Assembly: GCA_026929865.2 (NCBI GenBank)
Contig: CM049407.1
Location: 31,587,501-31,651,500, forward strand
Length of the DNA stretch: 64,000 bases
DNA from: Hyperoplus lanceolatus
Taxonomy: Eukaryota; Chordata; Actinopteri; Uranoscopiformes; Ammodytidae
Direction of reading: 5' to 3'
Below the pieces are notes generated by a model that was not told the origin of the DNA, did not search any database, and saw only the letters and a program-made list of their open reading frames with translations. Below are positions 8,977 to 64,000 of the stretch, piece after piece. Both the position numbers and the translations under genes were made by a program. Every line of letters starts with the position of its first letter. Position 1 is the first letter of the stretch.

Positions 8977-10511
8977 TTATAGAGGATGTAGATCAGTGAG
9001 GGGTCGCTTGTCCTGCTGTATAAACTCCTGTAAGCTTTTTTTCCCCTGCCTGAAGTTGCTCTCCCTTCTCGAGAAGGGCAGGATGACCTGGAGTCTGAGG
9101 AGAGTTTCAATGTTACTGAAACTTCTGATCTGTGACGTTTTGAGTGTATCGAGCACAGTGGTTGGGAGATAGCCTGCTAGGGGATCCAACCATTTCTCCT
9201 TCCACGACTTCATCTCAGAGTGAAGGGAGGCCTGATCTGGCAAGTCCTCCTTGTACAAGCGAAACACAAGACCACTAAGAATGCTGGTTTCTACTTTTGA
9301 CATTGCATAAGGCACAATCTCCAGACACCTCAAGGTATCCAATACCTTTTCTGTGAACAGGTCGTCAATTTCTTCTATCGAGTGTTCTACGACTTTCATG
9401 CTGACTGATTCCTTGTAAAACTCACTCAATGGCTCTAGAAGCACTGAATGCAACATTGTGACATGAAGTCTAGAAGCCAGTGCCACAGCTTCCTCAAACC
9501 AGGCCTTGTGATGCGAGTCAATATCGCTCTTCAGGTTACTGAGGGATGCTTTGAGATCAGGCAAAGTACTCATAGCAAGTAACATATCTAATGGTTTGCC
9601 CTGAAGTGACTGACTCAGCTTTTTAGTTATGTTCAAGATGTTCTTCTGCACCACTGTTGATAGGATGAACTCAAAGTTTGTGATGGAATGGAAGAAGAGG
9701 GCTGCTTGCTGCTGGATGGCTGTATTTCCCTCCCCTCTCAGCTCATTCAGACAGAGCATGGTGGCTTCTAAAACCTCTACCATCACCTCATGCATGTCAT
9801 GACTCTTATCCCAGTTTTTGATGAGTTTGTCCCTTAGCTCGTTGCCCTTTCCCTCATCATGCTGAAACACGTGAAGGATCATGTCTTCCAGTTTGTTCTG
9901 GCGTTCTGCATCCTCTGTGAGCCAATGTAACATTCTACCTATGAGAACGGCTCCATCTGCTGCCTCTTTAGCAGGAGAGGATCTAGCCAGCCATACATTT
10001 AGAGACAGAGCAGAGCTGACTGTTCTTACAGCCTGGGGGTACTTCTTAGCAATAGCTAAACTTACGGCCCTCATCTGAGCTCCTACTTCACCAACACTCA
10101 ACGAGGCCTGTCCTCTACAGTACTCCATGTTGAGTCCCCACTTTTCAGACAGGGCAATCTCAATAGAATCAGCAAGGACACCTGGGTCTGCACCCAAAGG
10201 GATGAAAGCTAACGTTTCCTCACACTGGATGTCTTCTTTGTTCAAGTATCTGATACACAATGGGACATATGGCTCACCGTCAATTTCAACAGCTTGCTCG
10301 GTAATGATTGTGAAGAACTGGGAGTCCCAGAGTTCCTTGAGGATTTGTTCACGAAGCTGTGGTTCATAGAAAGACACAGCATTTCTTGATCCTTGAACCG
10401 CCTCCAGCATTAATTCATTAGCAGCTGATTTCCCCACTCCATCGACAGGCATCTCCGCTACACTGGAGATGTGTGATTTGTTTGCGTCACCTGGTTTTAC
10501 GTCAATGCCTC
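8977..10511 (-). CDS. Exon 11: THAP12-type module 4, C-terminally shortened, with stop
   Basis: Acceptor TTAAATCAG, stop TAA at 8979-8977; 511 residues of module. Landmarks: FFTIITEQAVEI, VPLCIRYL, WGLNMEYCRGQASLSVG, WFEEAVALA, FYKESVSMKVV and PTTVLDTLKTSQIRSFSN. Compared with the other modules and thap12 it lacks the final ~30-40 residues (the ...MVxxY... end), stopping at TDLHPL. The residue at the first hAT aspartate position is changed (TE instead of TD). It is the terminal exon. Confidence 0.88.
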
Positions 10512-13500
10512 CTGATTTAAGATAAAAATAAGATGTTAGCCACATCATCATCATCATTTGTTGTGTAAATTAGAATCAAAAGAGTGACATTGTGCCATGG
10601 TTGCACTTACCACTGTCCAAGTTTAGTCTTTTTAGAGTTCCCATCACCTGAAAAATATGTGGAGCTGATTAAAATGGCTATTCAAATGCAATAGTTGCTT
10701 TCTGATGCAACATTATTATGGTTGAAGAAAATACATTTATTTTAAATGTACCTGGGAAAGACATGTGCTGCTCTCTGGATCGACTGCCATACACTTCTCA
10801 ATGACCTCCGGTAGTCTCTGCAGTGTTGTGCAGTGGGAAAGGAGAATCACATGATCCATCCTGCTGCCTTTGCATACAGTGTTTTTTAAACGATCCCTCA
10901 TGGAATTGAGAGTGGTCTTCATCAGGTCCCACTCCATACTGACACTAGGCAGGACAGCTACTAGCCTTAGCAGTAAGGTAACAGTTGGGTGGCTCTTCGA
11001 CTCGGGATGGACTAGTGTTTCAGTGATGGATGTTGGGGGAGCAACGTCCTGGTCTTTCTCTCTCCAGACAGTGGCCCAGGCATTGATCTCCTGCTCGGCT
11101 GCTTCAGGTTCGGGGAGATCTGTAAGGTAGAGGCTGAAGGGCTTGTCTGTGGACTCCTGTGACGTGGACTGTGGGTTGCAGGAGGGCAGCAATGATAGCA
11201 CTGATAGAGCCTTCAAGTGGCTGTCTGAGAAGCTGTACTTCATTTCATCAATGAGACTTTTGAGGAGAGGAACACTCAAATTTTCCCTGTAATAAAGCTC
11301 AGGAGACTCATAGCTGTTGACTTCCTCTGAGAAGCACACTTGTTCTGGAGCAACCTTTGTTGCTAGCTTGAACGCCTGCTCAAACCAAGTGGAGTGCAAG
11401 GTGCTCACATTTTCTAACATGTTGTTAAGAGTCTCTATGATGGAAGGGATTTTCTCCACCTCGCAGAGAATATCAGCAGGGTTTCCACAGCGGAAGACAG
11501 TGCTACAGTTACGAAGAGGAGCACAAGCATTTTTCAGAATCACTAGTGTGACAATGAAATCCATGTTTCTCAGAGCGGTAGAGAGAACTTGTGCATGCAT
11601 GGACTTGGCACCGACTGCACTAGAGCTGACAGCATCTAGGCAGCTGAGGACCCCCTCTAATGTGTCAGTCAGTATGTCAAAGAAGTCCTCTCTCTTTTTC
11701 CACCTCGAACAACATGTTTCTGCCATTTCCTCCAGGGCCTCTCTTGGCATATTCAAAAGCCCATCAACAGCCTGTGCTAGCTGGCCCTCTAGTTGAGGAG
11801 ATCCATTGAAGAACAGCAGCAGGTCTTCTGTGATATCCAACATTTTTGCTACTGAAGGACAAGGCACACTTCCTGCCAGCCAATGGGCAAGGCCGCAAGA
11901 CTCACTGGGTGTTACGACAGAGAGCGGATAGCTCCTGAGGAAATCCAAAGACATTTTCTTCAGGCTTTGATAACCTGAGCCAAAGTGCATGAAAGCTTGT
12001 CCACGACACTGAGACATTGGCAGGCCCCAGTCTTCAGTGATAATCTTTGCGAGGTTATTTGCTTGTTTATCAACTTGACAGTTTTCATCAAATGGTAGAA
12101 ACCCCATGAGCTCTACTTTGGGAGCAGATTCTCCAACGTACCTGACAAAAACAGGAAGGTGTGTCTTGTCAGCAATTTTCACAGGCTTGTCTGTGATAAG
12201 TGAGAAGAACGGTGATTCCTGTATTTCCTTGAGTATGACATCTCTGATTCCATTTATGAGGAGGAGGACCATTTCATCTTCACCTATAGAAGGTGTGCAT
12301 TTGTTCTCCTTTCCAAACCAATGGCACATGCTGAGCTCCTGGATGAAAAGCTCTCGATCCTCTTCTGAGAGGTCCAAGAGACTGCAACTATTCTTCCCCA
12401 GTAGTGCAGCGAGTCTGAACACTGTTGCTAAGCTTTGACGATTATCTCCAGAGTGCCCATTCTCATCTGTTGCTTTCATTTCTTGATCCTCAGTCTTGTC
12501 AGGAGATTGCTGAATGTTAGGTTCTTGGGGTTCCTCTTTGACATCAACTAAACGTCAGGGAGAAAAACAGACGTCACAATAATGACAAACATTCAGGTTA
12601 TGGGAAACAACTATCCATTACTTAACATTTGTTAAGTGATAACTCTCTTTACTCAGTAGTTGCCACATGAATTGAAGAAATATTGATTTCAACATCCATA
12701 CCTTCCATATTATTTTCAGAGTTCCTGATGAAGCTTTTGGATTCCTTGTCCTGTGAATATACAATGTATATATCAAAATTAGTCTGACATTAAAATAACT
12801 CATGAATATTATTATTTTTTTTTAAAGAAAAACAAAAACGTACCAGGCAGATACCCTCCAAAGCTTGCGGAGTGACCTTCAAACATTGGGTTACCATGTG
12901 GTCTAGGTCTCTGCTGAAGTCGGAGCCCACCTGAAGCATAGCCAAGCATGGGGACCTATTTTTGGGATTTGTATTTCTCAGGTAGTCTTGGAACTTCTTG
13001 TGGCGCATTACAACACCACAGTCCTCCAGTGCTGTGCTGGGTAGCACTGACATAATCTTCAGCAGTGCATTGATGTTCCCAAAATACTGCATAAGGGGTA
13101 GACGCAATGTGTGAAATATTGAGCCTGGAACAGTCACAGATGCAACTTTGGTCTTCCAAGTTACTCTCCAACAGCACAGCTCTGTGAAGAAGTTGTCAGC
13201 ATCAGGAAGATCTCTGCTGTAGAGGGGAGGCTTTGCCTTCAAGCTCTCAAACATGTAACTTGCTGTGACTGAGCATGGAACTAGGGAGAGGAAGTTGAGA
13301 GCTTCTTTGTGGTCCTCTGAAAAATGATCCTTCACGGCATTGATAAGGTTATCTACTAGGGGCACACTTAACCCATCTTTGTAAAAACCAACTGGCTTCA
13401 TCATTCCGTCTCTTGGCATCGAGTTTTCAGGCACTTCAATCTGCACTCTTAGACTCTGTGCCATTGCACAGGCTTCATCAAACCAGTTTTGGTGAAACAC

Positions 13501-16500
13501 TTTCATATTTGTTTTCACTCGGTTCAGAGTGGCCACTATACCACTAATTTGGCAAAGTTGGGATGCAGCGGTGAAGTGGTCCTTCTGGAGACCTGCACTT
13601 AGCTCTCTGGTAAAAGAGGAAGCATTCTTCAAGATCACCATAGCAATGATGAAATCAAATTCCATTACCTTCTGGAGGAGTGCCCCGGCTTGTTCTGAAA
13701 CAAAGGTTTTCCATCTCTGTGGGTTGTTTTTGACTTTCTCCAAACACTCAACTAGGGGCTCAAGCATCTGCACAAACACCTCATAAGAATCATGCTTCTC
13801 TTGCCAAAGGGCACAGAAGTTCCCCTGTAACTCTTGCACCTTTTCATAGCTCTCTCTCAGACCATAGGCTATAACGTGGTCGAGCTGTTTTTGTAGAGTA
13901 GCGCTGCTGCCAAAAAACATCAAAACCTCTTCAAATGTATCCAGGGCTCTCTTAATAGCAGACACTGGGATGGATTTTGACCACCAGGTGTTGAAAGAGT
14001 AGGTAGAGCAGTGTGTGCTTATAGCAAGAGGGTGCTTCTCCTGGACTTTGCAGGCAAAGGCTTTCAGCTTGTAGGAAACATCACCAGAGCCTAGGTATGC
14101 CTGACCTCTGCAGTTATTGAAGTCGAGGCGCCACTCAACTGTTACTATTTCCAGGAGACGCTGTACCATGGCATCACACTCGAGATCTGCCTCCAGGAAT
14201 CCCATCAACTCCAATCGCATGACATCAAAACTGTCCACAAACCTAAGGAAAAGTGGTAGATAGTCTTTCTCCCCGAACTTCACAACACTGTCGATGAACA
14301 AGGAAAAGAATGAACTCGCCACTTCCATGAGGATTCCTTCACGGACGGCATTCTCACACACATTGAGAACTTCTTTCATTTCAGACTTGGTCACATACTC
14401 AACCTCTGCATCCTGAGCAGAAGCATCACCATGTTGGCTGCTTTGACTGCTGAATGCTGCGGTCACTGCAGCCTGCAAAGCAGATTTGAGGGCTACTCTA
14501 TCAGTCTCTGCGCATTTCATCTCAACAAGCCTTTCAGCATCCATCTCTAGGTTTATGATTTGTAATTCTTCTTCGGTGTCCTTTTCAGCATGGTTCCCAT
14601 GTGATGCAACTAAAACGAAAAGGTGGGAATGGTCCTCATTAGTATTAGCATCAGCATATTGTAGCACTAGTAAAAAAGCAAATGCCAAAGTGTTCATATT
14701 CAATATCACACTTTAACCCATTGATGACGGCTGCTGCGCGATGCCACATTGTATCTCCTGCCTAATGCTGCGTCACGCAGCATTGTTACTTTATCTAATT
14801 TTCATGGCGTGCGCAACATAGAATGCACCGTCATTGGCTCAAATACACATGAGGTGGGTTTTGTTGATTTTTTAAGACCACGTGACCACCCAAAAAATGT
14901 GTGGTTTGCCGAAAATCACGCCAATCAAAGAATTCATAAATAAATAGTAATAATAAAAAATACGCCAGCTGTGTCGGCGATAGTGTATTACAGAACAGTT
15001 AGTGGCGTTCGGAGCGCAGCATCAAGGTCTACCGTAGGCTACTGACGAAAATCACACAACACATTGCATCTATTTATTAACAATATTTATGAATTTAGGC
15101 TATATTTTGCTGCTCCAACTCAAATTCAGCCCAGCCAGGCGATAGTTAAGTTTCAGTTTCGTTTTCATCTCCGTGGTATACAGCCGTTTGGACCAGCTGA
15201 GAAATCGGATTTATGGTGCCAGTGATAACCGAACTAAATAATAAAATAAAGCTATCTTCTCCTTCCTATATCTGTCTATCTTTATCCCTCCACTGCACAC
15301 TCAGTCACTACTATCCATGCTAAAAGGAAGCAGGATTATAACCTCGTTTAGCACACTATTTTTAAATATTTTATATTATTTATTCTTTTTTTTTCTCCCC
15401 CATCTGATTTTGACGATTTTTAGAAGAAAAATGTGTTGGTTTGTAAGCGCTAAGGGAGCATGTTTAAATAAAACCTGTGAACCTTAACTTTTAAATGTAT
15501 TTTATTTCATGTTTCTATGTGCTACACAGGCTTAGATATTAAGGTTTTGGTAGACTTTACAATTCATACTATTTTTTCAGAAAACACTCAGGCATTAAAG
15601 ACATGCATTCTAGATTGCCATAGTCATCAATGGGTTAACAAAACAATATTTTTATTATCATTATTATTATTATTATTATTATTATAGTCTTCCAGTCTAA
15701 AAGTCATTTAAATCCAACATGTCTTTTAAATCTTGCCATCACATGTACTCCGAAGACAAACATGCTGTGTAATGATATACTGTGATATGTGATAGAATAT
15801 AGCTGTGTGATTATCCAAAAGCTCAGCATGCTAAAATGGTCAAACAAACAAAGGTTCTCACCATGGGAAGGTTTCTCCTTTGTGTCATCATCCTAGACAA
15901 TACAGAAAATAGAATGTAATTTCAAGTACAATCATTTTATCACTTCAAAGGGCGATGACATTTAATAGCATTCTGGTTATGAACATCTACTAACCATTTG
16001 CAGCAACTTCAGGATGTCTGGATGCTTATGGACATATGACTCCACCATTTGTTCAACACTGAAGTGCACATCTTGGTTCACATAGACATATGCCATGCTG
16101 CATCGTCTGTGGTCCTCTGGTGTGGCGCTCAGGTAAGAGTGGCACCGCTCCAGTACCATATGGTATTGGCCATACACATCTGCCTCTGCATTGACACATG
16201 GAACAGTTCCCAACACTCTCAGCAAGCTCTGCACATTCGGGTAAAACCCAATATCTGGAATCTTGAGGGTAGCGAACACTGTGGTTGGTAGGATTCTGCG
16301 CTTGCTTGCATGCCGCCACTTCACTTCCCAACAACCAAGCTCTTCATAGAATGTGTCAGGCCTCGCAAGGTTGTTCAAGTTGGCATCTGCTACTTTATCC
16401 CGGCGAATGCTAAAATTGTGGTCGGCCATGTAAGATGGCACTAACGAAAGCCATCGGAGAATCCTGACCATCTCTGTGCTGAACACTCTCTTGACCTCTG

Positions 16501-19500
16501 CAACAAGGTACTGCAAGATAGGCCTACTCAGAGTTTCTCTGTAAAAGTCCTCCAGTGATGTTTCGGTTGTGTCTCCTTGGTCCATCTCTGGCTTAGTGAC
16601 CTCCACTCCCAGCTTCTTTGCTCTGCCAACTGCATCTGAGAACCATTTTCTGTGGAATATTGCAAGCTCCTGTTGGTATTTGCTGACCAGCTTTAAGGCA
16701 TTAGAAATTGTGTACTGCAAGGTACTGCTGATGCTTATTATTCCCCTGAGACTTGAGTTGAGTATGCTCACACAACAGAGGGTGTTCTTCAGAGCAACAA
16801 GTGTGATGATGAAATTGAAATTCTTCAAAACTGGCTTGAGCCTGGCCATCTGCTCAGCAGTGTTTTCATCTACCTTTGAAATGATTTCGTTAATGCAGTT
16901 AAGGAATGGCTCCAAAATTTCCAACATGGTCTGGAAGGCATCAGTGCCATATTCCCAATTCTCACTGACAGCTGCCTTGATCCTTTCAACTTCTCCTTTC
17001 ATGTGCCCATAGGTCATCTGGATCTTTCCCTCCAAACGCTTGCACAGCTCTGGTGTTCTCCTGAGTAATTTAGCCACCTCTTCTACAGTGTCTGCAACAT
17101 TTTGAATGGAGGGCACAGGCATGCAGCGAATAATCCATATGTTAAAGGCATAGGGGTCACTCGGTGACAGAACTACTTGTGGAAACTCCTTCAGAATTCT
17201 GCAGGTAAGGTCTCGCATCTTCTGACACATGCTGCCTGAAACCACATATGCCAGTCCTCTACAGTGCTCCATCCTCAGCCCCCATTTGTTTCGCAACTCT
17301 GAGAGAAGCATGAAAAACAGGTTCTCTGCATCCATGTCGCATGGTAAGAACCCAATGAGATGCTTTTGTGGGAACCCATCTACTGTGACAGACCTGATGA
17401 AAACTGGAATCTGCTCCTTGCCCTCTATAATGGTCACATCCTGGAGCAGAATGGAGAAGAATCGTGCCTGTATGAGGCTGTTTTGGATCTCCTCCCGAAT
17501 GAGGTCTTCGCTGGACTGGAGGATTTCTTTCTTGTCAATTTTCTCCACACAGATACGATTGAGAGCCTGCTGACCTCTTGTTCCTCCAATGGGCTCATCA
17601 CTGTTGATGTTTGCACCATTGATGCTGAATCCAGTCAGTGCCAGGATTTCCTTGAAATAGACTTTCAGGGTCTCTTTTGCTTTGAAACTGGTTATATCCT
17701 CTTGGGTTTGGTTCTCTATTTGCAGTTCAGGTGTTTCACTGTTGGCTCCAGACAAATCTCTTGTCTCCTCAGTCACACCATCTGTTGTTTTGTTTTCTAA
17801 ATGGGGGTGAGAAAAAACTGATTGAAATGCTGAAATTATTTATTAATGATTCAACCTTTCCAACAAGGACTGATAAAGTTTGACAAACACTTAAACTGAA
17901 ACTGCTAAAAATAAGGTATTTTTTAAGAATGAATAGGATGAAGTTGCTGTACCTTTTGTTTTCTTCACAGAAGAAGGTTCCTGTTCCGACTAGGTAGATG
18001 GAAAGGATAATTACAGGTTTGCAATTTTAGTGTTTAAAGGACTAAGACCAATTCTATGAAAAAGTAGGGCTGCACGATTATGGCCAAAATGATTATCACG
18101 ATTATTTTGATCAATATTGAGATCACGATTTTTTTAACCACGGTTATTCATTGATTTTAGTGACAAAAATATTTTTATTGGACTGTCACGTAACAACACT
18201 GTATTCATATCCATATGATGGACTATGCAATATTCATGCTAATGTACAAATCTTTGCATACAAAAAAAAGTATCCTCATTATTAACCTGAATATTAGGAG
18301 CTGCGCCTTGTCAAAATAAATCACAACCTATATGGCTTTACCATGTCAGAATTTAATTTCAAAGGACAGACACAGGAAGTGGCGGGCAACACTCAGCAGC
18401 AGTCCAAGTTAGTTAACCGTTGCTGCCTTATGCCTTTACTCGCAACACAAGGTTTGATCTTCGCTTCAGACAGAGGCACTGACTGTATGGAGTTATTTAG
18501 GGTTGCAACAACGAATCGATAAAATCGATTAAAATCGATTACTAAAAGCGTTGGCAACGAATTTGGTCATCGATTCGTTGAGCCGCGCGATTAATAAGTC
18601 ACTTGCAGGCGCGGCACTGTTTACATCCAGCCGCCGACAGGTTCATGCACGCCCACGGCGAGCCTTCACGTGCGGGAAAGCTATAGTGTGAGCGGCCACA
18701 GCTTGTATTTTGGTCATATCTAACACTAGACTGTAGGCCTATATAAATGTGTTGTACCTTTGCTTTCTTTGGGTTAAAAAAACTCCTTCAACTCATTATC
18801 CGTTTAGTCCAAAAAAACTCTGTCAGCTGCTGCTGCTGCAGACGGTGTGCAGACGGGCTCGGAGAGTCGGCATCGGCGCATCAACAGTCATTCAAAGCAG
18901 CGGCAGTAATCACACAATCGAACGGTGTAGAAAGTCCCGTCAGTTAAAAATAGTGATCCAGATTTTAAATCCATGTTAAAATCGGAAGGATATAGAGCTA
19001 GTTAGCTTAAAAAAAGTAGCAAACATGTCAACTGTGATGTGTTCAGGCCGGCTCAGTAATATGATTGATGTGTTCAAATGCAACACAAAAAAAAAGAAAT
19101 TTGAGATTTTGGCAAAACTTGTTTTCCCAGCAATATAAAATAGATAGTAAAGATGGAATTATGACCTATTTAATGTCCTATCTTGAGCTATGATCATATC
19201 AGCAATTAAAGCAATAATACAAGTTCTATTTCAACAAAATAATAGAAAATTATCAATTGTGATATCAATAAAGACTTTGATCCTTAAGGAGTCTTGAAAA
19301 TGGTATCAATATCAATACAAATGAACAATCTCCTGTCATCTGAGAGAAATTAAGATGATTTAATTTTTTTAACCGTTAGTATTTACTGGTTAAAAATATT
19401 ATCGGTTGACTGGTTTACCATGGACATCCCTTATACTGTATGAATGTATATCATACATTGTATGTTTTTTTTTGTGTTATCCCAGTTAAGTCTATTTTTA

Positions 19501-22500
19501 ATTTTTTATCATTTAATATTACTTTTAATAGTTCCGGGACGTTGGAGCAATAACCTGGTGTTTTGAACACTTCAGTCTGCACTGTGAATTTGAAGTAATG
19601 TTCAGTTTTTGAATAAAGATGCGGCATTTACAAATGTTTCTTTTTTTTTTATCCGATTCATCGATTAATCGAAAAAATAATCGACCGATTAATCGATTAT
19701 TGAAATAATCGTTAGTTGCAGCCCTACAGTTATTATTGGGTTATAAATCCGGCGCACAAAAAATAAGTCCTAATGAGGGGATGCATGTGATTTCACACGC
19801 GCAAATATCTGCTCTCCCTCGCGCAATAAGCAGCTTCCGCTCGCTCGTGGAGCACTTTCGCCGCGGGCGGAAAGTTATTCACACTTTGGGGGTTGAGCCA
19901 CTGGACTTTGATTGACAGCTCTCGGGGAGTCTGGAGTTGCCAGGTTTTGTGTTTTCATGTACTGTTGTACAGAAGAGAGACAGTTGCCTGCATGGACAGG
20001 CTGTGATTCCTTCACGCGGACACATGGTCAGCGAGTGGTTAGGGGAGCGACTGATTTGCTTCGCAACAGAGCACACGTTCGCATGATCATGTAAATTTGA
20101 TCGTGAGAAGCCAAAATCATGATCGTGATTATAATTGTGCAGCCCTACGAAGTATTTTAACTAAGCATCAAACAAAAAACTTACAGGATCTCTAGCTCGT
20201 TTCCTGTTGCAGGCTGATTGATTATTCACGGGCGTTGTAGAGTCAAACATCGTTGGAACAGCATCTTCCCTTAAGACAAAACTGGATGCGCTCTGAAAAG
20301 CAAAGAACATAAGATGACACTTTTAGTCTTACAGAATATACATGACTCATCAAACAAGGTCACACCAGACGATACTAAGGATGTGAACAATTTAATTTCA
20401 AAGGACAGACACAGGAAGTGGCGGGCAACACTCAGCAGCAGTCCAAGTTAGTTAACCGTTGCTGCCTCATGCCTTTACTCTCAACACAAGGTTTGATCTT
20501 TGCTTCAGACAGAGGCACTGACTGTATGGAGTTATTATTGGGTTATAAATCCGGCGCACAAAAAATAAGTCTTAATGAGGGGATGCATGTGATTTCACAC
20601 ACGCAAATATCTGCTCTCCCTCGCGCAGTAGGGGTGTAACGGTATACTAAAGTCATGGTTCGGTACGTACCTCGGTTTTAAAGTCACGGTACAGTACGGT
20701 ACGGTTCATAGTTAAGGGAGAATGAACAGTTTTAGCTGTCATGTAACTAGCTGACAGTGTGTAACATACAAATAAAATGCATAGGCCTAACAAATCTAAA
20801 AAGAATACTGCAATTCTCCAATAAATAAAATACTTATTAAATACTAGTGAATGTGCAGCATAAACTAAAATTGCAGTGGAAAAAAAGCCAGTGTTAATGC
20901 TCAGCAGGCTCTGTAAGCTGGTATGTAAAAAAAGGGTGTCATCTTTAAGGTATTTTTGACTTTAAAAAAATAAAATGTTACTGCAGCTCTCTGAAGCTCT
21001 GAAGCGCTCTTATAAATATAACAATTATCTAATAAAAGTGCAACTGCAGCATTAATTAAATGACAGCTTATGTATTTTCAGTATAAAAAAGAAAATACTG
21101 TCTGTCTTTGCACAGCTCGATTTTTCTTCACAGTAACGGTGATAGTAAGACCTGGATGGTGCCTTTTCAAATGCGTATGCATGTTCGACGTGTTGGCTCC
21201 CTTTATATGTCCATGGTTGGCTCCTACATAGGCGATCGCGGTGAAACAATAACCTGTGTGCCGACAGTGTTCCACACGTTTATCACTGTTTTCATAATTC
21301 TACTGGAATCCCTCAAGCGGGATTTGAATGACAGGGGGACGCCTGCAAGCTCCGGTTTCCTGTTGACTTTCGCCATGCAGTTCGCTCTCTGTTCGATAAC
21401 ACTGTATAACATCTTTATTTGCACTACTCATAGACTGTAAAAGAAAAGAGGGGTAGCCTACTGCAACTGCTAATAGTGATGCAAACGGAACACTTGAGCG
21501 GAGAGGTGTGTATCTCCTGCTCTGACCGCAGCTGGGAGGGGCTGCTGCGCGAGGACCTGCCCGCCTGTCAGTGCTCTGGGACGGGGCAGGAGCCTCGGGA
21601 GACAGCCGCTGCTCGTTTAGAAGTAAGAGCGATACATGCTTTAGCAACAAAGTCTCCAAAAGTCACCAATAACACCAGAGTGTCGCTTTTTTGAAAAAAA
21701 GTCGCCAGAGGGGTCTGAAAAGTTGCTGAGTTAGCAACACTGCACCTCATGCTGTGCTCACCATGGAGATAACAAACTCTAAATCGCTGGATGCTACTGC
21801 GCACGTGCGAGCGAGCCGGAGGCTAAATGGTCCGGGGGGAACTCCGACGACAAGTTTTAAGTTCCACACCGCAAAACAAGCCTGTACATTCGCCATATAT
21901 TAACGCTATTTAGGCTACGCCACAAACGGACCGCGGTCCACCTCTGTAACACCAAATACGTGCCTGTACCGTCACGGTACAAATACGTGTATCGTTACAC
22001 CCCTAGTAAGCAGCTTCCGCTCGCTCGTGGAGCGCTTTCGCCGCGGGCGGAAAGTTACTGTAAATGTAGTGTCTATGTCCGAAAAGGAGTGAGAGGAAGC
22101 CGAAGCTTATGTATTCCCACCCCTTGTTCAACTGCTCGTAATTACCTGCTATGCATTTATCAGTTTTAAACAACTATTAACATAAAGCGAATTCCAAGTA
22201 TTCATATTTATACAATACTCTTATATTTACAACATTTACAAAGCTTTACATTTTTTTTTTTAAATTGACAAAAATAAACAAACGAAAACAAAAACCCCCA
22301 AATCACTTATCCGAATACAACCAGTGTAGCTAATATCACACTCAAAATCACCCACATTCATCACGATAACGTTAAAAAAAAGTGTTTTTGTACCTATTTT
22401 TAAAGTGAATTATGTTTGTGCTAAGCTCTACTACCTGTTCTTAACGATTCTACAAATTCACCCTACAGATGGTAATGCACACACTTTTAAGAGTTGTTCT

Positions 22501-23302
22501 GAAATTGTATTTTTTTAAATTAAGTTCCCCTCTCAAATTATACCCACCCTATCTGTCCATAAACAGTTTCTGGATGTTTCCCAGAAGTAGTTGATTTCTT
22601 GCCTTGAACATGATTTGTGCAGTCTTAAATATTACCAGATCGGTGAGCTTCAGTGCATGTGACTTTAGGAATAATGAGTCTGTTCCCTCAAACCACCTAG
22701 CGAGCGGGTTAGACTCACAGCGTATGTTGCCGCAGTAACGGACTCTGAGATGCACTGAAGCTTCTTCATGAAATGGGAAAACCCAGAGTTTCCTCTAACT
22801 CAGAATGAACAAACTCTGGGTTGCCTCAAAACCCGCTTCATGAAACAGGCCCGTATACTTGCAAAGTGGGCAAGTGCTTTTGAAACCTTAGTGCCAACCC
22901 CTGCACTGCCCTGTATTGTACAAGAGTGTGACGCCCAGAAAAATGAACAAAGACAGTTCAGGTCAGTAAGGCCAACTAAACTGCATCAATGCAACACCCA
23001 AACATCGATGCATAATGCTGTATTATATGCTTTTATTTTGAAAATCTCCTTGCACGGGTCGGGTGCGTTTGACACGTATTTCAGCACGAGCCTGTCCAGC
23101 ACCGCAGCCTCAGCTAAAGTGGATAGCTCCACCAGGCTAATGAGCTAAGTTAGCGAGGAATCCACCAAGTTTAGCTTAGCGCCTTGAAGACCCACATGTC
23201 CCAAAACTACACAAGTGTACCTCCAAGCACTTTTTTTTTTTACTGCTGCTACACCTCATCTAACTATCTATAAATCTATCTATCTATAAAGCAAGAAACA
23301 TC

Positions 23303-23335
<33 letters not shown>

Positions 23336-26300
23336 CTGTGGCTCGCATATCTCTCTGAGTTTTAGTCAGATCGGCATGAGCTTCCGGATATTGCTTGCGC
23401 ACAGCCCTTCAGTGTGAAGTTTTTAGAAGTACGAAGGTGTGCATCCTTCAGTGTGAAGTTTTTAGAAGTACGAAGGTGTGCATCCTTCATTGTGAAGTTT
23501 TTAGAAGTACGTGCGCACACTGAAGGCTACAGTGAGCACAGTGAGAACGGAGCATGAAGTAATCTCCGAATAAACCCCGCCTCCCTCTGACGAGCGGGAC
23601 ACACACAGCAGACAGACACAGCCTATTGTTACTTCGTCAACAACTCCTCACCTGCTCCACCTGTCCGCTTTAGTGGTAAAGACTGCACTTCACGCTCTTT
23701 TCACTGTAATAATACAGCACGGTCTCAGATTCTTCCACAAAATGTTTTATATCCGTTTGAAAGCTAAACCGAAAGCCCGAGCGCGCGCCCAAGTCCCCCA
23801 CACACAGCTGACTGCTACTGACACGTTAACGTTAAAAAAGCTAAACTAAAAGCTTGAGCGCACGCATACACAGCTGACTGCTACTGACACGTTAACGTTA
23901 ATTAACAGCAAGGTCTCGGATGCTTCCACAAAATGTTTTATATCCATTTAAAAGCTAAACCGAAAGCCCGAGCGCGCACCATAGATAGTAAATAATATGG
24001 TTGTAGCATCCGGGCTGACCTCAGTTGACACGGCATCCAATAATCCTGGTTTGTGCGTGTCGCCATTTTGTGAGATTTTTACTCCGCCTCACGTCGGGGG
24101 GAGGGAGATAGCTGACGTATACCTCCGAGGCAAAGTGAGGGACAACGGGCGGAGAGCTATCACTCAAGAGATCGAGCCAATACATTTTAACCTCCAATAA
24201 AATAAAAACTAGCGTGGTCCAAAAAAAAAATCACCCCCCATAGTGTTGTCATGGAGATATGACCTAAACATACAGACTAAAATGGTTTTGTGGCCCAGGC
24301 TGTAAATAGGTTTAATAAGACCTTGAAAACGGCCTGTCTAACAAGTGAGTCATAGAAAAACTGCTCGGTCTTGGCACCACCCCCCAGTGGCACTTCCTGG
24401 TTACTACAGTTGTGGTCACTTCCTTATTGGATGCTGGTAAAAATCGCTGAGGTTGGGGCTTGGCGCGCACACAAGTCCCACCCCCACACACACACACAGT
24501 TGACTGCTACTGACATGTTAACATTAATTGACAGTTATCCAAACTCTGTCTTATCTTTCAAATACCTAACAGTAATGGTAATGGGTAGGGATGGGGATCG
24601 TTAATATTTTTTGATATCGATACCTTTATCGATTCGCCTTATCGATCCGGGTCTTTATCGATACCACTATCGATACTTTTCTATTATTTGGTTGAAAGAC
24701 GACGTAACAATATGTTTTTAACAGAACTGGTATTGCTTTTATTGCTTAACAAGTGAGCATAACAAAAACGTGTCTAGCCTTCAATAGTGGGTTAGTGATT
24801 AGGAAAATATTTAGGAAATAAATAATTGTATTTTAAATTAAATTACATTTTTAATAAATATTGGCATCAGTAGTTTAATTATATATTCTAAAATGATGAG
24901 AGCACTATACAACTGTATTACTCATGTTTCTCGCCAAAAACTCAATTTCCCATTCCTTTACGTTACACTTGAACGCATCATGATAACCTAATAGCCATCC
25001 TGAACACATCATCACGCAACACGTCTGAAACTTTGTTTACTTTTTAAGCTAACTAGCTTGTATGCTGCCGATTACAACACGGATTTCACAATTGGATTAC
25101 TATTTTTAACTGACGGGACAACAAGCTACACAGTCTCTGTGTGTGCGTTTACCGCTGGTACTTTGAGTGGATGATGAAGACGGGCCCTTCTGTGGTGCGG
25201 CGGCAGCAGCAGCAGGAGGAGGAGGAGGAGACAGAGTCTTTTCAATCCGGAGACAGTCGAAGGTACTGCATTTGGCCTTTATTTGATGCACAATGCTGAT
25301 GTGCTTGGCCATTGAGGTTGTGTTCCCCCCTTTACAAGAAATGATTTTGCAACATAAGTTGCATTTCGCTTCCGCTTTATCTTCGAGCTTGGTAAAATAA
25401 AGCCAAACTGTAGACCTTTCCGCCCGTTCAGCCATCCTCGCGAGCGAAGAAAACTGCCAGACTTCACTTGTTTTACTTTTAATACCTGTTTGCTTACAAT
25501 TTAATTCAAAAACATTGGTGGACACGCTGCAATGATTGGTTTGATTTGATTTAAATGCCGTGACGCGACTCGAGGTACACACGGGAGAAAAAAAAAACGA
25601 CAAGACTCGATAGTGGTATCGATAAACCCAAACGTTATTGATTTTCGGGTTTTGAAAAAAGTGGAACCGGGTCCTTGATAGAACCGGGTTTCGATCCCCA
25701 TCCCTAGTAATGGGGTTGACAATGCCATGACGTGCAGCATAGACTCCTTTTATACACAGTGCAGCCATTTACTATAGGCAACTGATTGTAAGTTTGAGTG
25801 CATTGTGCAGTATGGATAGCAGTTTGCAGGGTACCATAATATCAGATTGTATAGGTAACACCTGTACAGCTCGATTCTTCTTTAGGATTCAACACTTAAT
25901 TAACACATTTTCTGTTTCATTTCACTTAACAAAACACATGGAATTAGTTTGTGGTTATCTTTACACAATACACTAAGGAATGTTGCCCTACTCTATAGCC
26001 AACTTCTACAAAGTAACTTACTGATAATAACCTTTAACAGTGTAAAATTAGCCATTAATGATAGCAGCCAAATGTACTGTCTAATATCTTTCTTTGTTTA
26101 CCTGCTTCCTAAGGGCACTGCACTAGTATGAATAGAAAGAGATGGAAAGTTATTAAGGCAATCACACTTTTTTTTTACCTTTATTTTATAAAGGAAGTCC
26201 CATTGACATTCAATAAAACGTCATCAAAAAGAGGGATCTGGCCAAGGTAGCAGCTGAAGTTTATTGTTTAGGGCTGCAACTAACGATTATTTTAATAATC

Positions 26301-32300: not shown

Positions 32301-34300
32301 CCCCTTTCTAAAATGCTTACAAAAAATAAAAAGAGATATGAGGAGAGAGATTTTAATACAAAAAATATATTGTTAAGTTTCAACTTTTTTCTGAATTCAA
32401 AGAAAAATTGTGTTCTGAAAGTGAAGTAAATGCTACTTAAACCCAAGAATTATCCATAAATAACTTCATTTACCATTACCTTTCAATCAACCCCCCCCTT
32501 GACTCCAACCACCCCCCAAAAAAATAATTTTTTTTTTAAATACATTTAACAAAAATTAAAATCTATTTTTTCCTTTTGGGTAAAAACCTCAAATAGAAAT
32601 ACCCCATCAACACAACCTACTACACCACCAAAAATTTAAAAAAACGTATTACAATTTTCTTTAAAATTTGATTTTAGGGACAATTATTATATTTCAACTA
32701 TGTTTTTGTGAACAGAAGATTTTTTTTTTCAATTTTTTTTTTTAATTGGGGATCCAAAACACCAAAACCTCTTATTAAAAAGAAACAACAAGTAGGCCAA
32801 AATAACCATAATGAATATAGCTACGCACACAGTAGGCCCAATAATACCACAAAACACCAACACCCCCCACCAAAAAGAACTTAAAATAACATTATATATT
32901 TATTCATAGATACCAAAACAAATTTTATTTAATGACAAAAAACATTTTTTTAAAATTTTTTTTAATTAAAAACCAAATTTTCAATATTTCCGCAAGACAG
33001 ACTAAAAACAATGAAGAACTAAATTTTTTTGTAAAATTTTCTTTAATAAAAATTTTTTTTCAAAAAAGAAATTTTTTTTATTTTCTTTTTTTATAATACT
33101 TTAATACAATATTTTCCAACCATAAAAACGAGAATAACATACAAAATTTCGAAGCTTCAGCCCACGGATTCAGCTCTCTTACAAAAACATAAACGAAAGA
33201 ACGTGGAGGGTTTGCGCTCGCCCTTTGTCCCCTTTGGTTAACACCGCGGTGGGGAGGGGGGAGTTTGTACCGGTTTTGACTGGTAGTAAATCAGGGTGAT
33301 ATTTGGCGCAACCCAAACCCTCCCCCCGGGGCGGGGGGGACTATCGACCAACCGTTTCTACCGTCAGCAGAAGTGCTGCACAATTAATGTACACGCAATC
33401 GCGAGCTTGCATGGACATAGCCGCGCAAAAGGCTGCAATTTATGGTAAATAAATGCGGGTGCATGCCACCAAGCGTTCCTCTCCTCTGGAAAGTTAAAAG
33501 TTGCGGGAAACACTGGGTAATATAATGACAACGAAACGGGACGCTTTTCCTATTAGAATTATTCTAAAAAAGATTGATAACATGCACAACTGATCTGATC
33601 TACTTACCATTTCAGAGATCATGGAGGGCTCAAAGTGCTTTGCACAAAGTTTGTACAGCTTATGCAACTGATCAGGAGATTCCAATGCCAAATCCTGGCG
33701 ATGACAGTTGTCCAACCATTGTTTGCAGCTGAAAAATAAAGGTTTAAGATTACATCAATTGTTTAGCATAGCCTTCGTGACTCAAATATGCAGAATATGC
33801 ATATTCCATGTAATCTTTTACTTTCTATACGACTTGACAAACAGACGAGTGCTCAAAAGGTTTGTGACCCGTATTAACATGGTTACTCTTTACATTACTA
33901 ACATGCCATCATAGTAGCAGACATAGGCCTACGCTACTTTCTTCATCTAGAAGGTTATGACTCATTAGAGGCACAAGACCTTCACCAAATACAAACATTT
34001 GTTCAGAAGTGTATACAAGGTGACATTGTTTTCTGATATTAAAGGGATAAACATGCTTACTGTGTGAAAAACTAATAGGAAAAATACACTGTTTATTTAT
34101 GTATTTATTTAATATTCTTTCGGACAATTCCACACAATACACAATTTTCTCTTGCAAATATTCATACATCATAATTTGTGTTGTCCGAAGGGAGACGGAA
34201 GAAGCCAAAGGCTTATCAGGTCCCGCCCCCATTTTCATCAAATTCGGATTCAGATACACAGTTACTGTTACAGAAAATAAAAATAAAACAAACAAAAAAC

Positions 34301-34346
<46 letters not shown>

Positions 34347-35630
34347 CACACACAATATTACCATTTCTCTCAAACATTGTTCACAAATCTGTCTAAATGT
34401 GTAATAGTGAGCACTTCTGCTTTGCTGAGATAATCCATCCCACCTCACAGGTGTGCCACATCAAGATGCTCTGACATCATGATTAGTGCACAGGTGTGCC
34501 TTAGACTGTCCACAATAAAAGGCCACTCTGAAATGTGCATTTTTTTGCTTTATTGGGGGTCTGGGGACTCAGAACCAGTCAGTATCTGGTGTGACCACCA
34601 TTTGCCACATGCAGTGCAACACATCTTCTTCGCATAGAGTTTATCAGATTGTCAATTGTGGCCTGTGGAATGTTGGTCCACTCCTCTTCAATGGCTGTGC
34701 GAAGTTGCTGGATATTAGTGGGAAGTGATGCACGCTGTCGTATACGCCGGTCAAGCACATCCAAAAAATGCACAATGGGTGACATGTCCGGTGAGTATGC
34801 TGGCCATGCAAGAACTGGGACATTTTCAGCTTCCAAGAATTGTGTACAGATCCTTGCAACATGGGGCCGTGCATTATCTTGCTGAAACGTGAGGTGATGT
34901 TCATGGATGTATGGCACAACAATGGGCCTCAGGATCTCATCACGGTATCTGTGTGCATTCAAAATGCCATCAATAAAATGCGCCTGTGTTCTTCGTCCAT
35001 AACAGATGCCTGCCCATACCATAACCCCACCACCACCATGGGCCACTCGATCCACAACATTGACATCAGCAAAGCGCTCACCCACACGACGCCACACATG
35101 CTGTCTGCCATCTGCCCTGAACAATGTAAACCGAGATTCATCCGTGAAGAGAACACCTCTCCAACGTGCCAGACGCCATCGAATGTGAGCATTTGCCCAC
35201 TCAAGTCTGTTACGGCGACGAGCTGGAGTCAGGTCAAGACCCCGATGAGGACGACGAGCATGCAGTTGAGCTTCCCTGAGACGGTTTCTGACAGTTTGTG
35301 CAGAACTTGTTTGGTTATGCAACCAAATTGTTTCAGCAGCTGTCTCAGTGGCTGGTCTCAGAGTGGCCTTTTATTGTGGACAGTCTAAGGCACACCTGTG
35401 CACTAATCATGATGTCAGATCAGCATCTTGATGTGGTACACCTGTGAGGTGGGATGGATTATCTCAGCAAAGCAGAAGTGCTCACTATCACACATTTAGA
35501 CAGATTTTTGAACAATGTTTGAGAGAAATGGTAATATTGTGTATCTGGAATGAATTTTAGATCTTTAAGTCCATCTCATGAAAAATGGGAGCAAAAACAA
35601 AAGTGTTGCGTTTATATTTTTGTTGAGTGA

Positions 35631-35714
<84 letters not shown>

Positions 35715-37067
35715 CACACACAGGAAAAATACACTGTTTAGGCTAGTTGTTTCAGCGAACACCTGCTGTTAAATTCATTAGAATTTTAACATACACACAA
35801 CTCTGCTTATTTATATAATTGGATGCTTTATATATGTTTGTGTTGAATCCTTATGTTTTTATCAGCTTTTTTTATTTATTTTCTTTGTTGATTGTTCAAG
35901 ATCAATAACAAATCAAATATTGCACAGTGCACATGCATGGGGCCATTATGCTTACAGGGGCATGTCTGCATCATTACATGGATATGGCACAGCACTGATA
36001 CATTTCTGCTTTGCTTAGCTGAATTTATAACAAGGACCTGCCGAAGTGTAAGTGATGATAAAAAGGAAAGAACAAAGTTGGAACTGGTTGCTGACTAAAG
36101 CCTTCTCCATTTAACACGAGGTATTTGCTTTCACTTTCATTACAATTCCCCCATAATACTTCTGTTAATTGGCTTTATTGATGTATGCAAAGATCATCAT
36201 AGAGGTGAATAGATTTCCCGCACATAAGTTTTGACTCTCCAAATATGGAGGCATTTTAGGTGGAGTCCACTAACAAGCTGAACTGTAGAAGTCAGTTCAT
36301 TCCAATTAATGGTTTATAAACAGGATAACACTCCTATAATTGCACAAATCTCAAAATGGAAATGAGAAAACACAAGTCAACGCTAGTAAGAGCGAGGCAA
36401 CAGCAGGATCAAGGGAGGCGCTAGACTGCTGTTTACAGGGACATCACCTGTTCAAAGCAAGTTTCTTTTAAAACTGCCAAAAATGAACTGTACAGTTAAA
36501 CGATTGATTACGTAACGTTTGGTAAGATATACAGACGATAACGCCAAAAAGCACTATCAGTAGGAGGCATTTGGATCTTGATAAACTAGCGCTAGTTCTA
36601 CTAACGTTACCACCCCATCGAGACGGTGGGTGTCGTATACCTAACCAATGGCGATTTAAATAACACAAAAAGTTTTTAAATGTGCTTTCTCTTGGTTTGT
36701 GGAATGACTCAACACATAAAATAAACTGACAGAGCTTATACAACACGCCAGTGTGTCTCCAGGCCTCAATGAGTGAACAGAGTTTATTTCACACGGACTT
36801 TTCTTACAAGAGTAACGTAAGTCTGCGCCATTTTCGATAGAGTTGTGTCGCCGTTAGCCAACATGATGTGAGGCTAACGACAGTGCTAACAGTGGATAGC
36901 TAACACATTCATTTTGAATGCAAAGTGGCTAATTTTTAGCAGAAATTTCAATTGAATAAGCACAAAACCTACCGTTCCGGATCCAAAGGAAAGCTGAAAA
37001 GTGGAGAGGAGTTTTCGGATTCCCCTGGCTGGTAATCACAGTTCGCTGCGGCGCAGCAGTCAGTCAT
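8977..37067 (-). CDS. THAP-domain protein with four tandem THAP12-type (hAT-derived) modules
   Basis: Eleven coding exons, read right to left: 37067-36973, 33728-33608, 20292-20185, 17989-17953, 17796-15995, 15892-15862, 14609-12844, 12750-12702, 12547-10752, 10647-10611, 10511-8977. Every junction has GT-AG and matching phase; the exons sum to 7377 nt, i.e. 2458 codons plus TAA. Exons 1-3 encode a THAP zinc finger (C-x4-C in CCAAANC; C-x2-H in LCAKH; AVPTMF box), the DNA-binding domain of THAP proteins. Exons 5, 7, 9 and 11 each encode a full ~510-600 aa module homologous to the body of THAP12/PRKRIR, which carries DUF4371 and hAT-dimerisation regions. THAP12 has one such module (761 aa in human), so the fourfold array is the oddity. 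The canonical gene lies just upstream on the same strand. Cellular role unknown; DNA binding through the THAP finger is expected. The protein model is splice-inferred, not transcript-proven. Confidence 0.85.
10611..10647 (-). CDS. Exon 10: linker exon of module 4
   Basis: 37 nt, phase 0 in and 1 out; acceptor ATTTTTCAG, donor GTAAGT. In the required phase it encodes VMGTLKRLNLDS. This is less acidic than the other linkers, while a shifted frame would read a more linker-like GDGNSKKTKL. The phase is nonetheless forced by both neighbours, so it may have shifted during evolution. Confidence 0.7.
10752..12547 (-). CDS. Exon 9: THAP12-type module 3
   Basis: 1796 nt, phase 1 in and 0 out; acceptor GACGTTTAG, donor GTACAT after codons CLSQ. 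It opens with VDVKEEPQEPNIQQSPDKTEDQE, where VKEEP resembles a sumoylation-type motif (inference). Module landmarks: FFSLITDKPVKI, LPVFVRYV, WGLPMSQCRGQAFMHFG, WFEQAFKLA and YYRENLSVPLLKSL. Retention of intron 9 would end the protein after four residues (VHLK). Confidence 0.88.
12702..12750 (-). CDS. Exon 8: linker exon of module 3
   Basis: 49 nt, phase 0 in and 1 out; acceptor ATTCACAG, donor GTATGG. It encodes DKESKSFIRNSENNME, a charged linker like the others. Confidence 0.75.
12844..14609 (-). CDS. Exon 7: THAP12-type module 2
   Basis: 1766 nt, phase 1 in and 0 out; acceptor CGTTTTAG, donor GTACGT after codons GICL. Encodes ~589 aa with the module landmarks FFSLFIDSVVKF, LPLFLRFV, WRLDFNNCRGQAYLGSG, WFDEACAMA, FYKDGLSVPLV and PGSIFHTLRLPLMQYFGN. 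An ATG upstream of the acceptor in the same frame (14709) lies in intron sequence that meets the MITE and is not a likely start. Reading through the donor would add about 17 residues before a stop. Confidence 0.88.
14717..15634. mobile_element. TTAA-flanked MITE (piggyBac-like) in intron 6
   Basis: TTAA at 14713-14716 and 15635-15638 flank inverted ends CCCATTGATGAC / GTCATCAATGGG. TTAA duplication is the signature of piggyBac- and Kolobok-type transposition. No transposase frame inside (918 bp), so it is non-autonomous. A related copy sits in an intron of the neighbouring thap12 (about 41463-41950, opposite orientation). Confidence 0.75.
15862..15892 (-). CDS. Exon 6: linker exon of module 2
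   Basis: 31 nt, phase 0 in and 1 out, acceptor TTGTCTAG, donor GTGAGA. It encodes DDDTKEKPSH plus one nucleotide completing a valine codon with the next exon. Too small for gene finders to recover easily, but needed to keep the frame between modules 1 and 2. Confidence 0.75.
15995..17796 (-). CDS. Exon 5: THAP12-type module 1
   Basis: 1802 nt, phase 1 in and 0 out, acceptor CCATTTAG, donor GTTAGT directly after codon KLLQM. Homologous along its whole length to the thap12 body. Landmarks in order: FFSILLQD (position of the first hAT RNase-H aspartate), IPVFIR, WGLRMEHCRG, WF-DAV, FYRETLSRPIL, an LPTTVFATLKIPDIGFYPN stretch, and an EQMVESYVHKHPD end. If intron 5 were retained the frame would stop after five codons (VSRCS). 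The second hAT catalytic aspartate normally found after CRGQAY is absent, as in THAP12, so no transposase activity is expected. Confidence 0.88.
17953..17989 (-). CDS. Exon 4: linker exon of module 1
   Basis: 37 nt, phase 0 in and 1 out, between acceptor TACCTAG and donor GTACAG. It encodes SEQEPSSVKKTK. The corresponding linker exon of thap12 (41021-41057) is also 37 nt with the same phases and similar charged composition. Confidence 0.8.
18065..20147. mobile_element. hAT-type element with nested insertion (intron 3)
   Basis: Inverted ends TAGGGCTGCACGATTATGGCC at left and its diverged complement ending GTGCAGCCCTA at right. Such ends are typical of teleost hAT elements. Flanking octamers (TGAAAAAG / CGAAGTAT) match only in part, so the target duplication is decayed or the ends are slightly misplaced. 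No transposase frame seen. A second hAT (18498-19726) is inserted in it. Confidence 0.7.
18498..19726. mobile_element. hAT-type element inserted inside the 18065-20147 element
   Basis: Inverted ends TAGGGTTGCAACAACGAATCG and (complemented) TAGGGCTGCAACTAACGATT. Flanking octamers GAGTTATT and CAGTTATT match at 7 of 8. An uninterrupted copy of the target (GAGTTATTATTGGG) exists at about 20531, confirming the insertion point. The interior matches, in reverse, the element at 26269-28778. Non-autonomous. Confidence 0.85.
20185..20292 (-). CDS. Exon 3 of four-module THAP gene: AVPTMF box and basic tail
   Basis: Acceptor CTTTTCAG, 108 nt (36 codons, phase 0-0), donor GTAAGT. It encodes VLREDAVPTMFDS, the AVP-type motif that closes THAP domains, followed by a basic stretch (NRKRARD) that could serve in nuclear import. 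It stands isolated between large intron blocks full of transposons, 13 kb from exon 2, so transcript confirmation would be useful. Confidence 0.87.
20389..22057. repeat. Second copy of a ~296-bp repeat, split by a hAT insertion
   Basis: The segments 20389-20628 and 22006-22057 together match 18350-18497 plus 19727-19877 almost base for base (for example AAAGGACAGACACAGGAAGT and CCGCGGGCGGAAAGTTA in both). The two copies are each interrupted at a different place by a different element, so each serves as the empty-site control for the other. Confidence 0.85.
20629..22005. mobile_element. hAT-type element (TAGGGGTGTAACG ends)
   Basis: Inverted ends TAGGGGTGTAACGGTATAC and (complemented) TAGGGGTGTAACGATACACG, a common fish hAT end. 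The empty site is seen at about 19828 (CGCGCAATAAGCAGC). The octamers next to the ends (TCGCGCAG / GTAAGCAG) do not form a clean duplication. No full transposase frame inside. Confidence 0.75.
22758..22846. repeat. Short inverted repeat (MITE-like)
   Basis: TTCATGAAATGGGAAAACCCAGAG on one side and CTCTGGGTTGCC...TTCATGAAAC on the other can pair over two blocks around a small loop. Probably the remnant of a palindromic MITE; the family is not identified. Confidence 0.5.
23280..23334. repeat. (CTAT)n and (GT)n microsatellite
   Basis: A few CTAT units followed by about 13 GT units. Confidence 0.85.
23408..23512. repeat. Three tandem copies of a ~43-bp unit
   Basis: The block CTTCAGTGTGAAGTTTTTAG with its following AAGTACGAAGGTGTGCATC is present three times, the third copy with one internal change and a different end. 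Direct tandem duplication in intron 2 of the THAP gene; no function seen. Confidence 0.85.
23750..24540. repeat. Diverged direct repeats sharing CAGCTGACTGCTACTGACA
   Basis: The string CAGCTGACTGCTACTGACAC followed by GTTAACGTTAA occurs near 23806 and 23871, and a diverged form (CAGTTGACTGCTACTGACAT) near 24499. The segment around TTTTATATCCGTTTGAAAGC is likewise repeated near 23938. Likely tandem or segmental duplications of a repeat; family unknown. Confidence 0.65.
24586..25706. mobile_element. hAT element with perfect 8-bp target duplication
   Basis: Exact octamer GTAATGGG at 24578-24585 and 25707-25714 flanks inverted ends TAGGGATGGGGATCG / CGATCCCCATCCCTA. The 1121-bp element keeps the first transposase exon (BED finger, minus strand) but not the rest, so it is a deletion derivative. 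Confidence 0.92.
25153..25435 (-). pseudogene. BED zinc-finger exon of a hAT transposase (remnant)
   Basis: ATG at 25435-25433 opens MAERAERSTVWLYF; the frame has C-x2-C (CNLC) and H-x4-H (HISIVH) in BED spacing, then a proline/alanine-rich stretch, and ends at a GTAAAC donor with 94 codons. BED fingers form the N-terminal DNA-binding domain of hAT transposases. No downstream catalytic exon is present inside the element, so it is not a working gene. Confidence 0.8.
26269..28778. mobile_element. hAT element carrying a second inserted transposon
   Basis: Exact 8-bp duplication TTATTGTT (26261-26268 and 28779-28786) with ends TAGGGCTGCAACTAACGATT / TTCGTTGTTGCAGCCCTA. Same family as 18498-19726 in the opposite orientation; the two are alignable over most of their length. 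Interrupted at 27188-28560 by another element. Confidence 0.92.
27188..28560. mobile_element. CAGGGTTTTT-ended DNA transposon, 5-bp target duplication
   Basis: Perfect inverted ends CAGGGTTTTT...AAAAACCCTG flanked by AGTCC on both sides (27183-27187, 28561-28565). The empty counterpart in the sister element reads GGCCTACAGTCTAGTG near 18736 (minus-strand sense), confirming the insertion. A short frame MLRIAGCFEKLLDDENK at about 27549-27599 ends at a GTAAAA donor and may be a first exon remnant. Near 28190-28250 an end resembling the 18065 hAT (GAGCAGCCCTA) is also present. Superfamily not certain; a hAT branch is plausible. Confidence 0.75.
29252..30219. mobile_element. hAT-like element inserted in the BED hAT remnant
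   Basis: Ends TAGGGACGGGCACGAGTA and (complemented) TAGGGATGGGCATGAGTA. Flanks GTGATTTT / GTGAAAGC share only the first four bases, so the duplication is decayed. It splits the 5' region of the surrounding hAT from its BED exon. Confidence 0.7.
30220..30417 (+). pseudogene. BED zinc-finger exon of hAT transposase
   Basis: The frame reads GRRKRQRMSKVWDHFTLN, then C-x2-C (CVHC) and H-x4-H (HMNRKH) with standard BED spacing; donor GTAATT after GAGACAA. Transposon-derived, not a host gene: it lies between hAT ends and lacks the catalytic part. Confidence 0.8.
30876..33515. mobile_element. Putative element with CAGTGTTTCCC ends
   Basis: Left end CAGTGTTTCCCACAGG at 30876, right end (complemented) CAGTGTTTCCCGCAA at 33515, as in many hAT elements. 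Flanking octamers TGAAACTA / GGTAATAT do not match, so either a deletion removed one flank or these are ends of two copies. The interior has no credible coding frame and includes an odd homopolymer-rich tract (about 32480-33150). Confidence 0.5.
33608..33728 (-). CDS. Exon 2 of four-module THAP gene: second half of THAP finger
   Basis: Acceptor TTTTTCAG, 121 nt, donor GTAAGT. It encodes CKQWLDNCHRQDL...SPDQLHKLYKLCAKHFEPSMISEM, which contains the invariant THAP tryptophan and the C-x2-H zinc-ligand pair. It closely parallels exon 2 of thap12 at 42020-42137, with the same phases (2 in, 0 out). Confidence 0.9.
34077..34095 (+). repeat. Left copy of a 19-bp direct repeat flanking the Tc1 block
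   Basis: AGGAAAAATACACTGTTTA, identical to 35722-35740. The two copies bracket both microsatellites and the Tc1-like element. Confidence 0.9.
34306..34350. repeat. (TA)n(CA)n microsatellite
   Basis: About 18 TA units then a short CA run; directly abuts the shortened left end of the Tc1-like element. Confidence 0.95.
34352..35627 (-). mobile_element. Tc1-like transposon, left end truncated
   Basis: Long inverted repeats of about 170 bp (34352-34523 and 35371-35545; for example GGCACACCTGTGCACTAATCATGATGTC at right has its complement at left, with few mismatches) enclose a transposase remnant. The right end continues to GCGTTTATATTTTTGTTGAG, a familiar fish Tc1-type terminus; the outermost part of the left repeat is missing, replaced by a microsatellite. 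Confidence 0.85.
34579..35322 (-). pseudogene. Tc1-like transposase, N-terminus deleted, catalytic residue lost
   Basis: 247 residues with the Tc1/mariner motifs TDESRF (first Asp), FQQDNARPH (second Asp) and PAYSPDMSPIVHFLDVLDRR. In active relatives the last motif reads SPIEH; here the catalytic glutamate is a valine. The helix-turn-helix N-terminal ~90-100 residues are missing because the frame runs straight into the right inverted repeat. Complete members of the family have about 340 residues. Not functional. Confidence 0.9.
35628..35709. repeat. (GT)n(AT)n microsatellite
   Basis: GAGT/GT units followed by about 18 AT units, abutting the right end of the Tc1-like element. Confidence 0.95.
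35722..35740 (+). repeat. Right copy of a 19-bp direct repeat
   Basis: Identical to 34077-34095; see that entry. Confidence 0.9.
36973..37067 (-). CDS. Exon 1 of four-module THAP gene: start codon and first half of THAP finger
   Basis: ATG at 37067-37065 begins MTDCCAAANCDY and reaches FSFPLDPER, the typical THAP start (first two zinc-binding cysteines; conserved FP and DPER segment). The exon is 95 nt and ends in phase 2 at a GTAGGT donor. The equivalent exon of the neighbouring thap12 ends at the same codon and phase, supporting common descent. No in-frame upstream ATG gives a better THAP start. Confidence 0.88.

Positions 37068-51552: not shown

Positions 51553-64000
<12,448 letters not shown>

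Follow-up and report, generated by a model that had tools for sequence, protein, structure and literature searches.

We think it likely that a 64,000-nucleotide (nt) stretch of the Hyperoplus lanceolatus genome (the window; C13:31587501-31651500 of an assembly of 806.7 Mb in 527 contigs) holds one long-maintained coding gene, a tandem paralogue of THAP12 in which the pair formed by exons 4 and 5 was duplicated in frame to four copies whose protein products, here called bodies, serve as interaction modules. This array gene lies on the minus strand and runs from position 37067 to 8977. Its 11 exons join into an open reading frame of 7377 nt without an internal stop, from which a product of 2458 amino acids (aa; ~278 kDa) is predicted. 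We take this gene and its single-body relatives to be THAP12-type on the strength of general features of the family; the sequences compared were those of this genome.

The gene opens with two exons for the THAP finger and an exon 3, which are followed by four pairs, each made of a micro-exon and a long body exon (Table 1). All 10 junctions are GT-AG with compatible phases: each of the four micro-exons begins in phase 0 and hands over to its body exon in phase 1, and phase 0 is restored at the end of body exons 1-3. An earlier, sequence-only reading had given the coordinates, the 11 exons, the 10 GT-AG junctions, the agreement of phases and the length of 2458 aa, all of which were reproduced exactly. 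It had also described four complete copies of the body. Bodies 1-3 are indeed complete (600, 588 and 598 aa downstream of the acceptor), but body 4, at 510 aa, is truncated and lacks the C-terminal stretch of the family. Likewise, the repetition of the body exon stands, but the micro-exon belonging to the repeated unit had gone unmentioned; its inclusion there is what points to the origin of the array. The joins between bodies, in stretches cut by eye, are acidic (isoelectric points of 4.5-4.7). The second of them, ahead of body 3, contains at residue 1339 a VKEE motif, which is presumably of the SUMO-acceptor type.

Two single-body genes of five exons each served for comparison: one, of 722 aa, lies directly upstream of the array gene, and the other, of 761 aa, lies on C4 (L024). 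Both have a 37-nt micro-exon immediately ahead of their sole body exon, in the phase found in the array, and their exon plan (two THAP exons, exon 3, 37-nt micro-exon, body) is matched in order and phase by exons 1-5 of the array gene. The array unit is thus best read as a copy of their exons 4 and 5. The array gene resembles THAP12 (also called PRKRIR, THAP0, DAP4 or p52rIPK), as represented by these two genes, in its THAP finger, intron phases, micro-exon and homologous body; it differs in having four bodies with acidic joins where they have one, and is better called a variant than an ordinary member.

Homology among the bodies is strong: the neighbour's body matched the four array bodies with E values of 3.6e-58 to 1.4e-85, and body 1 matched the other five bodies with E values of 2.8e-48 to 2.8e-72. 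The genome was searched with body 1 (best 71 of 73 candidates), the neighbour's body (71 of 117) and body 4 (80 of 80, E cut-off 1e-6). The strong matches were the same six bodies for all three queries, and no second array appeared elsewhere in the genome among the scored matches. The next-best matches had E values of 3.8e-7 (query body 1) and 2.5e-11 (query neighbour's body); the nine that were retrieved carry hAT-type motifs.

Table 1. Exons of the array gene and the adjacent single-body gene, in window coordinates.
Feature	Position	Strand	Evidence or remark
Array exon 1: start codon and first half of THAP finger	36973..37067	-	56% identity over 32 columns to neighbour exon 1
Array exon 2: second half of THAP finger (CxxHF)	33608..33728	-	E 6e-16 to neighbour exon 2
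Array exon 3: AVPTMF motif and basic stretch	20185..20292	-	E 0.005 to neighbour exon 3
Micro-exon 1, 37 nt	17953..17989	-	agrees in length and phase with the micro-exon of each single-body gene
Body exon 1, 1802 nt	15995..17796	-	
Micro-exon 2, 31 nt	15862..15892	-	junctions and phase; micro-exon scan against shuffles and controls
Body exon 2, 1766 nt	12844..14609	-	DUF4371, E 9.7e-5, below cut-off
Micro-exon 3, 49 nt	12702..12750	-	junctions and phase; micro-exon scan against shuffles and controls
Body exon 3, 1796 nt	10752..12547	-	homology, junctions
Micro-exon 4, 37 nt	10611..10647	-	junctions and phase; micro-exon scan against shuffles and controls
Body exon 4, 1535 nt including stop, C-terminus truncated	8977..10511	-	
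Neighbouring THAP12-type gene, 722 aa, 5 exons	39084..43294	-	exons 43294-43209, 42137-42020, 41253-41161, 41057-41021, 40918-39084

Are the eleven exons parts of one gene? Bodies 1-3 end in a splice donor rather than a stop codon, and the donor is placed alike in all three, 8 codons past an invariant proline and in phase 0. Among the donors of the local stretch it ranks first in bodies 1 and 3 and second in body 2 (7.9 vs. 9.4 bits); the one of body 1, GTTAGT, is modest at 5.8 bits. In the two single-body genes no donor ahead of the stop exceeds 3.6 bits, and the C4 gene has a 5.8-bit donor just past its stop. The gaps between bodies were then scanned for stop-free, phase-matched micro-exons of 25-55 nt with approximate vertebrate splice weight matrices, the length range and phase rule having been chosen after the micro-exons had already been seen. 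In each of the three gaps the scan selected exactly the proposed micro-exon. Dinucleotide shuffles scored as well in 0, 2 and 0 of 500 cases, and real control segments elsewhere in the window were as good in 4 of 74, 7 of 366 and 1 of 452. As a yardstick, the neighbour's own micro-exon was equalled by 1 of 500 shuffles and 7 of 450 control segments. Micro-exon 1, which lies in a longer gap, was equalled by 46 of 500 shuffles; being weak by the scan alone, it draws its support from agreement with the two single-body genes. We infer that all of the junctions would be spliced into one mRNA.

The same gaps bear on a different arrangement, in which the THAP exons and body 1 would form one gene, followed by closely packed, THAP-less body genes with promoters of their own, or some mix of these. 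An in-frame stop and an ATTAAA follow body 1, and the 1385 nt that separate it from body 2, which hold four AATAAA besides that ATTAAA, could accommodate a promoter; one AATAAA (position 10741) also follows body 3. However, the gap between bodies 2 and 3 spans 296 nt with neither AATAAA nor ATTAAA, and that between bodies 3 and 4 spans 240 nt, leaving little space for separate genes and a tight fit for polyadenylation plus a promoter. Homologous donors, and not the family's stop codon, close bodies 1-3, and every gap contains a phase-matched micro-exon. We consider such separate genes unlikely. Another reading keeps the long gene but makes a short isoform (THAP finger and body 1) its main product through intron retention or early polyadenylation, the long form being minor or regulatory. 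The modest donor of body 1 would allow this: it is followed by five codons (VSRCS), the in-frame stop and the ATTAAA at 15966 (15966-15995, minus strand). Yet bodies 2-4 show coding constraint of their own and should thus be made in some product, and it is quite improbable that the short form dominates.

That constraint was assessed in several ways. The four array bodies share 22.8-28.9% identity with one another and 26.0-30.3% with the two single bodies; between the latter two, identity is 45.6%. At the DNA level, comparison of the array with itself (blastn) yielded one 38-bp match between units; recent duplication or an assembly artefact is disfavoured by this result and by the absence of any N in the window. 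Identity by codon position followed the order 2 > 1 > 3 in 15 of 15 body pairs, a pattern that carries the mark of selection on the protein. Neutral simulations without indels (n = 1000) were taken to ~20% identity, i.e., beyond the divergence of the real body pairs: none remained open, and the fewest stops were 11. Body homology, these simulations and the codon-position pattern reject the candidate explanation that the frames are open by chance.

A formerly coding array that is now losing its function would accord with the truncation of body 4 and with branches longer (1.0-1.46) than those of the single bodies (0.48 and 0.62). Against such decay, 11 of 11 exons are open, every junction is GT-AG, the THAP zinc ligands are intact, and neutral drift to such divergence would leave stops; we regard it as very improbable. 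In a tree that included three hAT frames, the array bodies and THAP12 formed one group (100/100), within which no firm branching order emerged. A single clade of the four array bodies was neither supported nor rejected (approximately unbiased test, p = 0.49). Joining the array bodies with the neighbour's body was disfavoured (p = 0.017), despite the THAP part being closest to the neighbour's. Either fast evolution of the array bodies or an origin before the split of the two single-body genes would fit. The six-row tree gave weak joins only, with long-branch warnings.

The array protein has one THAP domain, which exceeds the PF05485 cut-off of 23.9 bits with a score of 63.6 and has an intact set of zinc ligands (C-x4-C-x49-C-x2-H); the neighbour's domain scores 65.3 bits. 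Over the THAP part, the array protein is identical to the neighbour at 52 of 88 positions and to the C4 gene at 43 of 93, which places this part nearer to the neighbour. A tblastn search of the window with nine THAP-region exons found no further THAP exon: beyond the two known sets, all matches had E values of at least 0.055. A cryptic THAP exon between bodies was rejected on this ground, and the single finger of the sequence-only reading, with no THAP exon between bodies, is upheld. Genome-wide, THAP-domain matches were present in 150 of the best 150 of 222 candidates, with the top one on C12, which suggests either that the THAP family is large or that transposons bear the domain.

The bodies appear to descend from a hAT transposase. 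For body 1 an RNase H-like core with a helical insertion is predicted, with Hermes as the top structural match, and hAT frames in the same genome show motif-level similarity to the array bodies. Foldseek alone gave no match at E <= 0.001, and a profile search of solved structures gave none. No array body (0 of 4) exceeds the curated cut-off for DUF4371; among the six bodies only that of the C4 gene does (32.9 vs. 32.1), and Dimer_Tnp_hAT was absent from the Pfam matches of all six up to E 10. In 6 of 6 bodies another residue stands in place of the second catalytic Asp of the DDE triad, and DNA cleavage by them is therefore not expected. The array protein shares the predicted core with insertion (body 1) and the hAT motifs with hAT transposases such as Hermes and the DUF4371 group, and differs from them in having a THAP finger instead of a BED finger, no second Asp and four bodies per chain. 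Four independent transposon insertions are disfavoured by the common plan of micro-exon and body and by the 100/100 grouping with THAP12.

The anatomy of the predicted gene, its phases, its one finger, its four homologous bodies and their coding constraint are legible in the DNA itself; the order of events we infer. In a single-body ancestor of THAP12 type the body would first have gained a splice donor at its end, after which exons 4 and 5 of that gene, the micro-exon and the body exon, would have multiplied in frame to four copies. This agrees with the earlier proposal of a domesticated-transposase host gene expanded into an in-frame array, for which the duplicated exon pair, common phase, homologous donor and coding constraint all speak. 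The bodies would retain the predicted hAT-transposase-like fold but no catalysis. Once linked, the dead bodies would bind each other or distinct partners, and the finger would bring them to DNA, yielding a nuclear, multivalent relative of THAP12. The bodies most likely act as linked modules for protein-protein interaction or oligomerisation behind one finger.

To our knowledge, domesticated transposases usually join the host proteome as a single body. Here, a domesticated body has seemingly become a duplicable exon unit that was amplified inside a gene, with copies that diverged to below 30% identity and all remained open. If transcribed, the array would offer a natural four-body series for asking what a THAP12 body does after the loss of catalysis, and whether a single chain can have oligomerisation of the hAT type built into it.

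Published systems offer points of comparison. ZBED1, ZBED4, ZBED5, ZMYM6, ZNF862, GTF2IRD2 and Buster3 are, like the array gene, host genes derived from hAT transposases; unlike it, none is credited with a second transposase body in the available text of that source, and fused transposases are said there mostly to stay as long exons (PMC3257199). Human THAP12 is nuclear, binds target promoters and requires its DNA-binding domain to restore complex I (PMC13404843), and THAP0 has been reported as a homodimer via residues 1-488 (PMC6402169). In a fish study, prkrir is among the up-regulated antiviral transcripts, its architecture not being described in the text available (PMC9204966). No description of a multi-body THAP12 was found in the titles and opening lines of abstracts listed by literature searches on this architecture or on THAP12; protein databases or fish annotation may well include a protein of this kind with no remark on its architecture.

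Hermes forms dimers through an intertwined domain, and four dimers make a ring closed by a helix swap of the insertion domain (PMC10368747). It thereby assembles eight bodies from four dimers, whereas the array protein has four bodies within one chain. By this analogy, the linked bodies might pair within a chain, or two chains might pair, and so build the counterpart of a Hermes-like ring, in part or in full, with covalent tethers, a suggestion that we hold to be doubtful. If it were true, the logic of Hermes would be reversed: Hermes gathers many fingers, and the array protein would gather many bodies behind one finger, with each body free for its own partner.

Several other features were observed in the window. 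Between the neighbour and the array gene, positions 37727-37869 (minus strand) hold a relic of the neighbour's 3' end, 79% identical in DNA to 39088-39236, a further partial tandem copy. Positions 15401-15634, in the array intron after micro-exon 2, and 41472-41672, in intron 2 of the neighbour, share a repeat (82% identical) that is probably a transposable element. Intron 1 of the array gene contains a Tc1/mariner-like transposase frame (34579-35370, minus; DDE_3, HTH_Tnp_Tc3_2), and the intron between its exons 2 and 3 contains a BED zinc finger frame (25106-25768, minus). At 62236-62688 on the minus strand lies a segment of a gene for the oligosaccharyl transferase STT3 (PF02516, 45.6 bits).
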